A DNA stretch of 37,701 nucleotides. It comes from Desulfobacterales bacterium (GTDB lineage Bacteria > Desulfobacterota > Desulfobacteria > Desulfobacterales > Desulfatibacillaceae). Numbering within the stretch: position 1 is the stretch's first letter; every line of letters begins with the position of its first letter. Under the pieces are notes generated by a model. That model was not told where the DNA came from. It ran no database searches and saw only the letters and a list, made by a program, of their open reading frames with translations. Positions 206-37,701 of the stretch are shown here, one piece after another. The position numbers and the translations under genes are program-made. Where the stretch lies: NCBI GenBank assembly GCA_020057225.1, contig JAGVGH010000047.1, positions 1 to 37,701 of the forward strand, in the 5' to 3' direction.

Positions 206-1126
206 TTACCCGCTGAAAGGAGCGCCCCCGGAGTCGGGCCTGGGGGCGAACCATCTGGTTTTCATGCGAAACCAGCTCCGCAACGCAAAGGCCAGGGGGC
301 GGCGGAAAGGATAGGCTTTTTTGGGAATGAAAACCAGCCGGTTGAGCTTTTCAAAGCCCTCCAGCATATCGGCGGCGTCCCATGAGACAATCTCCGCGCG
401 CCTTTCAAAATTCCATGTGTTGAATTGTATTGCCAGCTCCTCGGTGCGGAAAACCGCATCAAAACGCAACGGACCCTTGAGGCGCAACGGGCGCATGCGC
501 GAAACGCCGCGCACGGCCTCGGCCGCGGATGCCCGGAGTTCCCGTCTGCCTTCCTCCAGATATACAAGGCTTTTTTCGCCGGAGGTGTATGTCTCTTTTG
601 CCTTGCTCACCCGCACGGCCTTCGCCCAGGGCAGGGTCCGCAGGGCCTGGTCCACAGCCACATCCTCCCCGGAAACAAAGCCGACGGGTATCCCAAACTC
701 CCCAAGATAGGCTCCGTAGATATCCATCTCCCCCGCGGGCGCGCCGTTTATTCTCACCTCGGAAAAAATCCCGTAGTGGGTGTGGGGAAAAAACGCGCCC
801 GGCGTTCCCGCGGCCGCGTGAATGGCCACATACAGGACAAGGTCTATGCCCCCGATATCGCCGAACAGGGAAGGATTTGCATAATGCCCCCCCACATAAC
901 GGACCCTCCTGTCCAGTTTGTCCGTCAGACAGTTGAATCCTGTGTCATGGGTGTCTTTAACCGTCACCCTGTCCGCGCCGCCGTCAAAGGCGCCGCAAAC
1001 CACGCTGTTGACATCCGCGGTCAGACAGGAACGCCCGTACTGCCATTCACGCGTTCCCGTCCTGCACTGCCGCATACGCCAGATACCGAAACTTCCCTCA
1101 AGGTCCGCAAACACCCCGATATGCAT
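206..1126 (-). CDS. M55 family D-aminopeptidase (DppA-like)
   Basis: This 306-residue protein resembles the zinc-dependent D-aminopeptidase DppA (peptidase family M55). The family's metal ligands are visible at the expected spacing: D8 and E10 in FADLEG, H60 in VKDTHD, H103 in VAIHAAAG and E133 in the AGEMDIYG segment. DppA forms a self-compartmentalising decamer that acts on short D-amino-acid peptides; the substrate here is unknown. There is no signal peptide, so it is probably cytosolic. The start at 1126 is preceded by a G-rich ribosome-binding stretch. It is the last gene of a minus-strand set nitroreductase > marR > peptidase, with 42 bp between the marR stop and this ATG. The C-terminal 30 residues, rich in R, F and W, go beyond the conserved core. 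The family call is firm; the physiological role is not. Confidence 0.85.
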   Translation of the reverse strand: MHIGVFADLEGSFGIWRMRQCRTGTREWQYGRSCLTADVNSVVCGAFDGGADRVTVKDTHDTGFNCLTDKLDRRVRYVGGHYANPSLFGDIGGIDLVLYVAIHAAAGTPGAFFPHTHYGIFSEVRINGAPAGEMDIYGAYLGEFGIPVGFVSGEDVAVDQALRTLPWAKAVRVSKAKETYTSGEKSLVYLEEGRRELRASAAEAVRGVSRMRPLRLKGPLRFDAVFRTEELAIQFNTWNFERRAEIVSWDAADMLEGFEKLNRLVFIPKKAYPFRRPLAFALRSWFRMKTRWFAPRPDSGGAPFSG

Positions 1127-1168: not shown

Positions 1169-1691
1169 TTATTCCAGTTTTTTCAGCAGACGCTGAAGCT
1201 GTTTCCGCGCCTCCGGGCTGAAGCGCCGGATAAACGAGCCGTTGATCTCGTTGTACAGCGTCACAAAGGAGTCCTGATGCTCCCTTGCCTTTGGCGACAG
1301 CCAGACGCGCAGGGTCCGCCGGTCGTCGCTGTCCGTCCGCCGCTCGACCCATCCATCCCTTTCCATGCGGTCTATCAGCCCTGTGACAGTTGCCCGGCCG
1401 GTCTCTGTTATTTCCGCAAGCTGGCCGGGCTGAAGCCCGTCAAGCTGGATGACGGCCATCCGAATAAAAAACCGGGAGTGTGTGATACCAAAATGCGGGA
1501 AAATCCGTAACACCTGCTGAAAGCCCCCGCTCAATCTCCCTCTCCCTGTGGGAAAGGGCCGGGGTGAGGGCGTACCTTGTCTGATTGCGCCTTGGTGTGA
1601 GTCCATGCTCCGCGATCCGCCCCCGGTAATGGCGGGAAATTTTCCGGCTCAGAGAGCCAAGCTGGAAACAGATGCAATCTTGCAAGGTCAT
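1169..1691 (-). pseudogene. marR-family regulator disrupted by a 112-bp element
   Basis: The two halves of a MarR-type winged-helix repressor lie in different frames. The 5' half (from ATG at 1691) gives an N-terminal helix ending ...IAEHGLT. The 3' half gives ...RFFIRMAVI, then GQLAEITETGRATVTGLIDRMERDGWVERR (recognition helix and wing) and a DDRRTLRVWL wing motif. Between them is a small element at 1486-1597 flanked by TGA on both sides. Deleting the element and one TGA (115 bp) joins the halves as ...GLTHSRFFIRM... in one frame, giving about 135 residues, the usual MarR length. The intact ancestor would start 3 nt after the nitroreductase stop, so it was translationally coupled to that gene and probably regulated the operon. 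As it stands the reading frame is shifted and the DNA-binding domain is separated from its N-terminal dimerisation helix. Confidence 0.85.
1486..1597 (-). mobile_element. MITE-like element, family 1, copy 1 (inside marR)
   Basis: A 112-bp non-coding insertion. Read on the minus strand it begins CACCAAGGCGCAATCAG, passes a CCCTCACCCCGGCCCT...AGGGAGAGGG hairpin and ends ...TTTTGGTA. The same order is found in the plus-strand copy at 4362-4478, including the segments GGCTTTCAGCAG and GCAATCAGACA. The ends are imperfect inverted repeats (TACCAAGGTGC type). A 3-bp direct repeat (TGA on the plus strand, 1483-1485 and 1598-1600) flanks it. It carries no gene, so a transposase acting in trans is inferred. 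Confidence 0.8.
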
Positions 1692-1694
1692 CGC

Positions 1695-2363
1695 TTATTC
1701 CACCCAGGTCGTCAGGTTTTCGGCGGGCACCCTCTCCGAGCGGACATGGTTTGCCGGAAAGTCCATGTCCGGATGTCCCAGGGCAATGGAGATGACAAGG
1801 CGCTTTCCGTCGGGAACGCCGGTGTGCTTGCGAAAGACTTCAGGGTAAAGGATTCCCTGGTCCTCGATGCAGGTGCCCAGGCCGAAGCTGAGGGCGGCGA
1901 GGCAGATGTTTTCCATCACGGCCCCGATGTCCAACAAGGGAGCGGATTCTTTGAGGATTTTGTCGGTGGCAATGACAATGGCGACAGGGGCGTCGAAAAA
2001 GCGGAAACCGCGTTCCAGCCACCCGGCCCGTTTCACCTTGTCCTCCCTGGGGATGTCCATGGCGCGGAAGAGCCGCTTGGCAAGCGCGATCTGGCGCTCT
2101 GCGTACACACTTTCCCTGGGCCATCCCACGACCAGGTGCTCCGGGTTCATGGCCGCCCCGCTCCGCAGTTTTTCCACGAGTTCCGCTCTGAGGGCCTCGA
2201 GTTTTTGCCCGGTCACCACGATGAATTCCCAGGGCTGGGAGTTCATGGCGGAAGGCGCCCGGCAGGCGGTTTCCAGGATTTGGCGGATGACATCTTTTGG
2301 GACCGGTTTTGGGAGGAACGCGCGGATGCTGCGCCTTTCCCGGACCGCTTCCATGAGTTCCAT
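1695..2363 (-). CDS. Nitroreductase family protein
   Basis: This 222-residue FMN-dependent nitroreductase-fold protein has the N-terminal signature MELMEAVRERRSIRAFLPKPV (flavin phosphate contact), APSAMNSQPWEF, and the C-terminal ALSFGLGTCIEDQGI helix typical of the family. Members reduce nitro groups, quinones or flavins with NAD(P)H; the substrate cannot be read from sequence. I chose the start at 2363 rather than the longer frame to 2468. An AAGGAGG ribosome-binding site lies just upstream, and the candidate promoter lies inside the longer reading. It is first in an operon with the disrupted marR (3 nt downstream) and the M55 peptidase. Such a pairing suggests that MarR once controlled the reductase in response to a small aromatic or oxidant. 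Confidence 0.9.
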   Translation of the reverse strand: MELMEAVRERRSIRAFLPKPVPKDVIRQILETACRAPSAMNSQPWEFIVVTGQKLEALRAELVEKLRSGAAMNPEHLVVGWPRESVYAERQIALAKRLFRAMDIPREDKVKRAGWLERGFRFFDAPVAIVIATDKILKESAPLLDIGAVMENICLAALSFGLGTCIEDQGILYPEVFRKHTGVPDGKRLVISIALGHPDMDFPANHVRSERVPAENLTTWVE

Positions 2364-2419: not shown

Positions 2420-2457
2420 GCATGCGTATAGTTAGCATACAAACCATTTGGCCGCAA
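2420..2457 (-). promoter_or_regulatory. Candidate promoter and MarR-type operator for the nitroreductase operon
   Basis: On the minus strand, TTGCGG (2457-2452) and TAACTA (2434-2429) are separated by 17 bp, giving a sigma70-like promoter about 65 nt upstream of the nitroreductase start. An imperfect palindrome with half-sites GTATGC and GCATGC (2420-2440) overlaps the -10, a usual place for a MarR operator. Because marR is now broken, the operator may be unoccupied. The assignment rests only on position and symmetry. Confidence 0.35.
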
Positions 2458-4342: not shown

Positions 4343-4361
4343 GGCGCGCCTCTCTGTCTCA

Positions 4362-4478
4362 TACCAAGGTGCAATCAGACATAAAAAAACGCCCTCACCC
4401 CGGCCCTCCCCCACAGGGAGAGGGTGATTGGGCGGGCGCTTTCAGCAGATGTTTTATGGATTTGAACGCAACTTGGTA
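4362..4478 (+). mobile_element. MITE-like element, family 1, copy 2
   Basis: This 117-bp sister of the element in marR lies in the opposite orientation relative to the window. It starts TACCAAGGTGCAATCAGAC and ends GAACGCAACTTGGTA, so the termini are imperfect inverted repeats of about 15 bp. A direct TCA repeat flanks it (4359-4361, 4479-4481). The centre holds the same CCCTCACCCCGGCCCT/AGGGAGAGGG hairpin. It sits harmlessly just past the terminator at 4301-4342. The remaining bases up to 4678 hold only a weak AT-rich promoter-like stretch (TTGCTG near 4556, TAATAA near 4579). Confidence 0.8.
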
Positions 4479-4678
4479 TCAGCATCCGCCACGCCCCGCC
4501 CGACAGGTTTCCCCGGTCTTGCCGCCCTCTGGCGCACCACAACGGTTTCTAATTTTTGCTGGACAAACATAAGTGAACCTAATAAATTGGGGGCGTGCGG
4601 CTCTGGCCGCCAAACAGAAACACCGGCGGTCCGTCTCTTGCCGCCCCAAGTCCCCCCCGCCCGCGCAAGGAGGCTCTC

Positions 4679-5128: not shown

Positions 5129-5176
5129 CCGCCTTCAACACGCAGGAATTCCAGTGGAGGTAATTGCCAAGCTCTT

Positions 5177-5339
5177 GAGGTAATTGCAAAATTCATTGAA
5201 ACGACAAATTTAACGCAGGCCGGGTGGTTCCGCCCGAAGGGCAGGTTCACCCAACAGATATGAATCATTTAAAAATGTTGGATGAACCTGGGCCGCAAGG
5301 CCCGGAACCACAACCCGCGCTCTATTTTGCAATTACCTC
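5177..5339 (+). mobile_element. REP-containing composite element, copy 1
   Basis: This 163-bp element is bounded by a perfect 16-bp inverted repeat, GAGGTAATTGCAAAAT (5177-5192) and its complement (5324-5339). Inside, a conserved arm (GAAACGACAAATTT) leads into one REP-like hairpin (GGGTGGTTCCGCCC...GGGCAGGTTCACCC), an AT-rich spacer (GATATGAATCATTTAAAAATG), and a second, inverted REP-like hairpin built around GGGCCGCAAGGCCC. Just to its left (5157-5176) a shorter copy of the left end, GAGGTAATTGCCAAGCTCTT, is repeated in direct orientation, suggesting a second insertion or an end duplication. It occupies most of the gap between the orphan gene and the TPR remnant. Confidence 0.8.
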
Positions 5340-5405
5340 GGCAAAAAGACCTCGTTCCGTCGAGAGGCTCCGGCGTCGGGGTTTTTCCCGGGATGCCCCG
5401 GACAG

Positions 5406-15644: not shown

Positions 15645-15766
15645 GAATAAAAAATCATCTTTTATTGTATTTTTTGGTTATAAAATGGGCATTTCTCCTC
15701 ATGGCAGCCGCGGTGCGGCAAGGTTTTTAAGCTAGCCTGGGGTTTCAACCCCAGGACCATGGCTTA

Positions 15767-15840
15767 GACATTATCTACGCAAAAAACGCGGATAATCCGG
15801 ACATAAAATCTAAATCCGTTCCGGTTCAATGCGCCCCGCG
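15767..15840 (+). repeat. Structured intergenic repeat, family 3, copy A
   Basis: The core ATTATCTACGC-AAAAAA-CGCGGATAAT is followed by CCGGACATAAAATCTAAA, then CCGGTTCAATGCGCCCCGCG. The same three blocks in the same order occur at 18286-18402 and 28318-28447. The first block folds into a hairpin. This copy has lost symmetry in the second, GC-rich block. Confidence 0.7.
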
Positions 15841-18190: not shown

Positions 18191-18231
18191 TTCTCTAATG
18201 TTTTTCCTAAGTCCGTTCCGATTGATGAAAC

Positions 18232-18273
18232 TGTCGGATGAACCTGCGCTTCGCGCGGAACCATCCGGCCTAC
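18232..18273 (-). repeat. Solitary REP-like hairpin with GTAG signature
   Basis: On the minus strand it starts GTAGGCCGGATGG, and CGGATG pairs with CATCCG around a GCGCGAAGCGC tip. This is the same unit as in the composite elements, but alone, 42 nt past the stop of the beta-barrel gene. A 5' GTAG tetranucleotide next to an imperfect palindrome is the hallmark of REP sequences handled by RAYT transposases. Confidence 0.75.
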
Positions 18274-18285
18274 ACAGGCTTTAGG

Positions 18286-18470: not shown

Positions 18471-18632
18471 GGTAATTGCAAAACTCTTAGAAACGACAAA
18501 TTTGAGGCAGGCCGGGTGGTTCCGCCCGAAGGGCAGGTTCACCCAACATCTTGGAATAATGGTATAATTGTTGGGTGAACCCGGGCCTCGCGGCCCGGAA
18601 CCGCCCAACCTACGCCTCATTTTGCAATTGCC
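18471..18632 (+). mobile_element. REP-containing composite element, copy 2
   Basis: About 162 bp, from GGTAATTGCAAAA (18471) to TTTTGCAATTGCC (18632). It contains the conserved arm TAGAAACGACAAATTTGAGG, REP hairpin a (GGGTGGTTCCGCCC...GGGCAGGTTCACCC), an AT-rich spacer (CTTGGAATAATGGTATAAT), and inverted REP hairpin b around GGGCCTCGCGGCCC. CAAC flanks both sides if two more bases are assigned to each end, a possible 4-bp target duplication. The spacer is identical to that of the cut copy at the right end of the window. Confidence 0.85.
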
Positions 18633-18823
18633 TCCAACATCTTCAAAACAACAACACAAAACCACGCTTCCACCAAGTCCTTAACGCGCCAAGACGCCAG
18701 CCGCCCTTGGGGGGCGTATCCGGATTTCCCTCCCAGGCATGGCCCGGTTTTACATCCCGGTTTTCATTCTCCGTCCACCTTGCTTGCTGCTTAACACAAC
18801 CTCATTACGGAAGGAGTCCTCCC

Positions 18824-36013: not shown

Positions 36014-36070
36014 GGGGGGTAAGGGGGGGGCTGAACGGCCGCCAGGGAGCGAATAATCAATTTTACACAG

Positions 36071-36235
36071 GAGGTAATTGCAAAATAAAGCGCAGACTGG
36101 GTTGTTCCGGGCCGCAAGGCCCGGGTGTACCCAACATTTCTAAATGATTCCTCCGTGTTGGATGAACCTGCCCTTCGGGCGGAACCACCCGTTCTACCTC
36201 AAATTTGTCGTTTCCTAGAGTTTTGCAATTACCTC
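36071..36235 (-). mobile_element. REP-containing composite element, copy 3 (reverse orientation)
   Basis: 165 bp from GAGGTAATTGCAAAAT (36071-36086) to TTTTGCAATTACCTC (36221-36235). Its complement aligns along its length with copies 1 and 2: arm (AGGAAACGACAAATTTGAGG), REP a, spacer, REP b around GGGCCGCAAGGCCC. It lies between ccsA and an IS1-type remnant. Confidence 0.8.
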
Positions 36236-36249
36236 AAACATAAAATTGA

Positions 36250-37178: not shown

Positions 37179-37531
37179 TCACGGCCTCCACACCACCCGG
37201 AGGCCCAGGTTCTTGCGGGTAAACCCCGGAAAGCAGCCGTCCCGCTCCGCGCTCCGGCAGTGCTTCCCGTAATAGGTATAAGCCCCGCCCCGGTACACCC
37301 GGCTCGCTCCGGGCGCAAGAGCCACAGGATCCGCGGCCTCCGCCGCGCTGTAGTCCGCAAGCCAGTCCAGGCCCCGCTCAAACGCATTGCCGCGCATGTC
37401 GTACAGCCACCAGGCGTTGGGAGCAAAACTTGCCACAGGAAGCGCCTTCTTCCTATACTCCCCTGCGGGGCATCCCGCAAGAGGCCGGTTCCCCTTAAAA
37501 TTGGCCTGGGCCGTTGTAATACCGAGTTGCA
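37179..37531 (-). pseudogene. Broken formylglycine-generating-enzyme (SUMF1/EgtB)-type gene, C-terminal part
   Basis: The C-terminal half of a FGE-sulfatase-type domain: AQANFKGNRPLAGCPAGEYR, then APNAWWLYDMRGNAFERGLDW and RVYRGGAYTYYGKHCRSAER...FTRKNLGLRVVW. Standard members keep GNVWEW at the GNAFER position; here the Trp residues are missing. The coding text ends exactly at the outer end of composite element copy 4 (37532), so the N-terminal half of the domain is separated from it or lost. Whether it continues beyond 37701 cannot be seen. Confidence 0.75.
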
Positions 37532-37701
37532 GAGGCAATTGCAAAATGGGGTGCGGTCTCACGGGCTCCGCGCCAAAGATATATCTTCGGGGCTAAACAT
37601 ACAAGGTTGGGTGGTTCCGGGCCGCAAGGCCCGGGTGTACCCAACAATTATACCATTATTCCAAGATGTTGGGTGAACCTGCCCTTCGGGCGGAACCACC
37701 C
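37532..37701 (-). mobile_element. REP-containing composite element, copy 4 (cut by window end)
   Basis: It starts GAGGCAATTGCAAAAT (37532-37547), then contains an extra stretch of about 40-50 bp not seen in the other copies (CTCCGCGCCAAAGATATATC region, 37564-37600). It continues with REP b (around GGGCCGCAAGGCCC), the spacer identical to that of copy 2, and REP a, until the window ends. It borders the broken SUMF1-type gene. Confidence 0.8.

Follow-up and report, generated by a model that had tools for sequence, protein, structure and literature searches.

The marR gene of a conserved nitroreductase-marR-M55 operon is split by a high-copy MITE that carries the triplex motif (TM) in its core. 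The element is a non-autonomous MITE of the IS630 (Tc1/mariner-group) type, a reading that very probably gives the best explanation of the whole. The disruption of a gene by a MITE is, taken alone, ordinary; more deserving of attention are the TNA target and the TM as apparent cargo. The novelty is that the TM triplex-forming repeat and a high-copy MITE with clean target duplications, so far known separately, are connected here. The window, i.e. the whole stretch of DNA that was analyzed, is 37,701 nts long and comes from a Desulfobacterota genome; its features are collected in Table 1.

Interruption of marR in a conserved operon

The minus strand carries, in this order, the genes for a nitroreductase, MarR and an M55 D-aminopeptidase. 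A first, sequence-only reading had placed a 112-bp element flanked by TGA/TGA between two MarR frames at 1486-1597 and claimed that its removal repairs the gene; both statements were borne out. Removal of positions 1486-1600 (115 bp) yields a stop-free frame of 135 aa (MTLQDC...LLKKLE), and the marR flanks show no lesion besides the insertion. Pfam MarR matches the C-terminal fragment as well as the fused protein (PF01047, 1.9e-10, 135 aa), and the joined flanks have the make-up of a MarR protein, a winged helix within about 140 aa. In the interrupted gene, the N-terminal frame runs from 1691 across the element to a stop at 1440 and the C-terminal winged-helix frame is out of step. The insertion cuts marR after codon 32 and the extra 115 bp shift the frame, so that translation from the marR start terminates after 83 residues and the product lacks the DNA-binding domain. 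The function of MarR, which is probably to repress the nitroreductase-marR-M55 operon to which it belongs, is most likely lost or crippled.

The fused MarR was used as a query against 389 genomes of the order and uninterrupted orthologues were found. The same operon is present in three other genera (L315 in G134, L318 in G218 and L320 in G098), with identities to the window of 76, 65 and 64% for the nitroreductase and 73, 67 and 66% for the M55 peptidase, respectively. MarR itself is 73, 62 and 61% identical and the alignment is gapless through the insertion point, where the L315 gene reads IAEFNLTHSQFF; the empty marR site that was to be looked for in relatives is therefore present in all three operons. 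These operons were reached through the MarR search and belong to other families; a search of close relatives for the M55 gene gave no orthologue in the same family. The nitroreductase-MarR-M55 D-aminopeptidase arrangement is conserved across several genera of the order.

The insertion is real and well explained, and misassembly at the marR copy is unlikely because the fused MarR is gapless against uninterrupted orthologues from the same operon in other genera. The genome is a draft of 323 contigs, several contig ends fall inside the element, and a misjoin through a repeat of more than 100 copies could have produced such an interruption; this is nevertheless highly improbable, as both flanks belong to one gene, their joining gives a full MarR colinear with the same-operon orthologues, and the TGA/TGA duplication obeys the rule of the element family described below.

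Upstream of the nitroreductase gene, the sequence TTTGTATGCTAACTATA resembles, by inspection of four sequences, TTTGTRTGCNAAYTATA of the L315, L318 and L320 operons, as would be expected for a MarR operator. The operator-like site pointed out beforehand is thus conserved in three orthologous operons and is retained as a candidate. We only infer that MarR is the repressor of the nitroreductase-marR-M55 operon. Derepression of the nitroreductase and the M55 peptidase, resting on the conserved operator-like site, is plausible, and an operon left without its regulator would be the likely outcome; the insertion may also be polar on the downstream M55 peptidase gene and lower its expression. Regulation would survive if a 145-aa protein that starts at 1606 and is translated across the element and on into the winged helix still bound the operator. 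The ORF 1169-1606 is open across the element and matches MarR, and the rest of marR carries no further lesion, but the first 32 MarR residues are replaced in this product by element-encoded sequence and no clear ribosome-binding site is found at good spacing before 1606. In the MarR family, these N-terminal residues form part of the dimer interface. Survival of regulation by this route is unlikely, and loss of the regulator is preferred.

Table 1. Features of the marR operon, the MITE copies and a target repeat in the window
Feature	Positions	Strand	Remarks
D-aminopeptidase M55 (PF04951)	206..1126	-	downstream of marR; adjoins marR also in L315, L318, L320
Interrupted marR	1169..1691	-	N-terminal part 1601-1691; C-terminal winged-helix part 1169-1485; joined, 135 aa
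Target duplication TGA, left of copy 1	1483..1485	.	sequence
MITE copy 1	1486..1597	-	112 bp, within marR; plus strand of the element is the marR coding strand
Triplex motif (TM/TMECO type) core of copy 1	1538..1571	-	one mismatch to TMECO no. 1
Target duplication TGA, right of copy 1	1598..1600	.	sequence
Nitroreductase (PF00881), operon gene 1	1695..2363	-	start 2363 set by orthologue comparison
Candidate MarR operator TTTGTATGCTAACTATA	2427..2443	-	similar in three orthologous operons; by inspection
Target duplication TCA, left of copy 2	4359..4361	.	sequence
MITE copy 2	4362..4478	+	117 bp, intergenic
Triplex motif core of copy 2	4391..4424	+	one mismatch to TMECO no. 1
Target duplication TCA, right of copy 2	4479..4481	.	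sequence
Unoccupied copy of another repeat (CCATGGCTTAGACATTAT)	15742..15814	+	repeat used as target by other MITE copies

The element family and its target site

The element has the properties of a MITE. First, it is short and non-coding with terminal inverted repeats (ends TACCAAGGTGC and TACCAAAATGC); second, it is present in many dispersed copies with target duplications; third, element-free sites exist, namely the marR orthologues and unoccupied target repeats. The sister copy with TCA/TCA flanks that the sequence-only reading had reported was recovered as an intergenic element, and the further copies it suggested looking for in the genome are numerous: at least 127 distinct profile matches, 97 of them full-length, a lower bound that covers the part of the genome retrieved. 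The 15-nt terminal repeat, allowing up to 3 mismatches, gave 171 matches in its own genome compared with 20 for the reversed control. The most frequent length is 112 bp (44 of the 76 two-ended copies). Copies of this length agree with the consensus at 95% of positions on average and diverge from each other by a mean of 8%, no pair being identical; the marR copy is identical to any other at 106 of 112 positions at most. Because of this divergence and the lack of identical copies, the amplification is not a last-moment burst. No match to the element was obtained in Rfam or in a phage search.

MITE copies avoid open frames. Of 74 joined sites, 30% have the junction crossed by a stop-to-stop frame of at least 200 codons, whereas the figure for random points nearby is 76%; the marR copy is therefore in a minority. 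Two ISAs1-like transposase remnants (L163, 306-447; L046, 520-665) each contain a MITE copy at one and the same target position, the two copies pointing in opposite directions; either the element was inserted twice independently or it was inverted in place. The window also contains a second dispersed repeat of about 170 bp (5175-5344, 18471-18635, 36057-36249 and 37527-37701, with related pieces at 94-145 and 18220-18274); with its ends GAGGTAATTGCAAAAT and its inverted GGCCGGGTGGTTCCGCC/GGTTCACCCAACA arms, it looks like a further MITE-like family.

Identical 3-bp flanks were found in 49 of the 76 two-ended copies, whereas 20,000 shuffles gave 18.3 on average and 33 at most. T occupies position -3 in 72 copies and A position -1 in 74, and the flanks are mostly TNA within CTNAG. 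Some copies are inserted in another repeat, whose occupied copies read CCATGGCTCA-TACC...GGTA-TCAGACATTAT; among 30 further copies of this target repeat, 16 read CCATGGCTCAGACATTAT, one, in the window, reads CCATGGCTTAGACATTAT and 13 are off-pattern. Comparison of empty and occupied target repeats thus defines CTNAG as the target and TNA as the doubled part. Combined, the identical flanks and the empty target repeats substantiate the initial proposal of a mobile insertion that duplicates 3 bp. The repeat that repeatedly serves as a MITE target (GTTTCAACCCCAGGACCATGGCTCAGACATTATC...) is the third abundant repeat, with 251 candidate places in the genome; it is found in the window at 15742-15814 and at 40 other places in the genome of the window (G000).

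IS630 elements classically duplicate TA (PMC7386202, PMC4853749 for the group), so that the copies might instead be TA-duplicating MITEs of IS630 or of the IS5 group in which the third base agrees by accident. The middle base, however, agrees in 57 of the 76 copies (mean 22.4 and maximum 39 in 20,000 shuffles), the empty sites are CTNAG with a single TNA, and no IS5-type transposase was found beyond one ISAs1-like fragment. The chance that either reading holds is close to negligible. In the Tc1/mariner group, TA is the classical duplication and TAA occurs in fungal Fot elements (PMC7386202); a literature search on IS630 with TNA returned nothing relevant. The TNA duplication points to an IS630-like group with a target other than the classical TA.

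A probable IS630-type parent

An IS with matching ends and 3-bp flanks, proposed at the outset as something to look for, was found in Desulfatibacillum alkenivorans DSM 16219 (G003), which belongs to the same family as the genome of the window. This IS630-family IS spans 1135 bp and is assembled from pieces overlapping by 239 nts, contigs C68 and C71 ending and contigs C10 and C84 beginning inside it. Both of its ends are TACCAAGTTGCAATC; orfA, encoding winged helices, meets orfB, encoding DDE_3, at an A-run, and orfB matches NCBIfam IS630 (NF033545) at 1e-33. The left flanks are TGA and TCA, and so are the right ones; left and right flanks are on separate contigs and were paired by their TNA match. 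The ends of the MITE have 14-15 of 15 nts in common with those of this IS, and some MITE copies in the genome of the window end exactly in TACCAAGTTGCAATC. The element is of IS630 type by its ends because these are shared with an IS630-family IS. It does not show the classical TA duplication, its own being the 3-bp TNA as in the TGA and TCA flanks of the related IS, and so works like a TNA-duplicating IS630-type element rather than a classical one. More distant IS630 relatives (44-51% identity) have other ends (TTATTCCATT); TTA flanks were found in the four with both ends readable, which is consistent with TNA and no proof of it.

No match to DDE_3 (PF13358) was obtained in the genome of the window, which is 92% complete, so the mobilizing transposase is absent or unassembled, and the mover is deduced only from ends and target. 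A transposase encoded elsewhere would recognize the terminal repeats, TACCAAGGTGCAATC on one side and TACCAAAATGC or TACCAAGTTGC on the other, and would insert the element at CTNAG-like sites with duplication of TNA; one such event would have split marR. The D. alkenivorans enzyme or a lost relative may have moved the MITE in this lineage. Two other parents were rejected. The ISAs1-like fragment is the sole match to PF01609 (DDE_Tnp_1) and is itself interrupted by the element; PF13586 gave none in the genome. An IS5-group parent was considered on account of its similar ends; that an IS630 transposase occurs together with the ends of the element speaks against it.

The triplex motif core and comparison with known systems

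Positions 27-60 of the MITE consensus, read on the opposite strand, are CCCTCTCCCTGTGGGAGAGGGCCGGGGTGAGGGC, 34 nts that agree at every position with TMECO no. 1 and no. 4 of the E. coli intrastrand triplex motif (Holder et al. 2015, Table 1; PMC4666352), and the core of the consensus is by sequence a TM/TMECO motif. With up to 2 mismatches, TM occurs at 135 places in the genome of the window, and 112 of the 117 sites examined lie inside the MITE. The exceptions are mostly inverted TM pairs with flanks unrelated to the MITE (L257, L259 and L262; contigs C29, C56 and C150 of G000). One site near a contig end (L260, C59) is a hybrid whose left half corresponds to the free TM pairs and whose right half to the MITE, and could reflect recombination at the TM core or misassembly. 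Other genomes of the order contain the same core without MITE ends. In G042 (L078, L091, L101, L264-L273), TM is part of another conserved repeat, ATATAATAGACTGAAATTCCATTTTATTC-TM-GATTTTCGACTTTTTACGAAACCATCA, in which no terminal repeats are visible.

The TM core looks like a cargo of the MITE, since 112 of 117 sites are in the MITE and same-ended MITEs without TM exist. Other cores are found in small elements that share these ends and the TNA flanks, both in the genome of the window (L110) and in G003, G004, G263 and G269. In G269 (L165) and G263 (L168), elements of 121-122 bp that have ends of this kind and are flanked by TAA/TAA or TTA/TTA have as core a GTCATTGCGAGG...GCAATCT hairpin, which we take to be another widespread repeat, and the core of L110 is another GC hairpin. 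In the simplest reading, the MITE would have captured a TM and then amplified it through the genome.

Alternatively, a MITE with a GC-rich hairpin could have come to resemble TM by convergence. Similar motifs are present in more than 260 genomes (PMC4666352) and the form may be favoured repeatedly. Against this, 39 consecutive nts recur unchanged in enterobacterial DNA of plasmid records, the matches covering the TM core only and lying in intergenic DNA, same-ended MITEs carry unrelated cores, and TM pairs exist beyond the MITE in the same genome. Convergence is accordingly doubtful and capture of a TM by the MITE is preferred.

Intrastrand triplex formation by TMECO was shown in vitro, and the motif, which recurs across bacteria and is linked to genome instability, had previously been unseen with a mobile element; its discoverers looked for a mobile origin and found none (PMC4666352). 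A search of the post-2015 literature for an association of TM with mobile elements returned nothing relevant. A high-copy MITE with TM suggests one route for the spread of the motif, which the link between TM and MITE therefore makes directly testable. As ends of this kind enclose TM here but other hairpins in G263, G269 and L110, it is conceivable, although we put this forward as speculation, that widespread bacterial palindromes like TM spread at least partly as cargo of TNA-duplicating IS630-type MITEs. If true, TM would gain the mobile origin that was sought in vain.

Three known systems may be compared. Firstly, TMECO has the same 34-nt core as the MITE consensus; in its published description TMECO is a free-standing intergenic motif never associated with mobility functions (PMC4666352), whereas the core here sits in a MITE with target duplications and once within a gene. 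Secondly, the hupL MITE of Candidatus Thiomargarita nelsonii (PMC4853749) is likewise a short, high-copy inverted-repeat element that breaks a gene in an uncultured bacterium and whose parent IS was not found, but it has 19-bp inverted repeats, a 10-bp direct repeat and unrelated ends. Thirdly, the D. alkenivorans IS (IS630, NF033545, PF13358) is the nearest parent type: it shares with the MITE the terminal repeat TACCAAG(G/T)TGCAATC and the TNA flanks, whereas the MITE lacks a transposase and, unlike the IS630 group with its classical TA, duplicates the 3 bp TNA.
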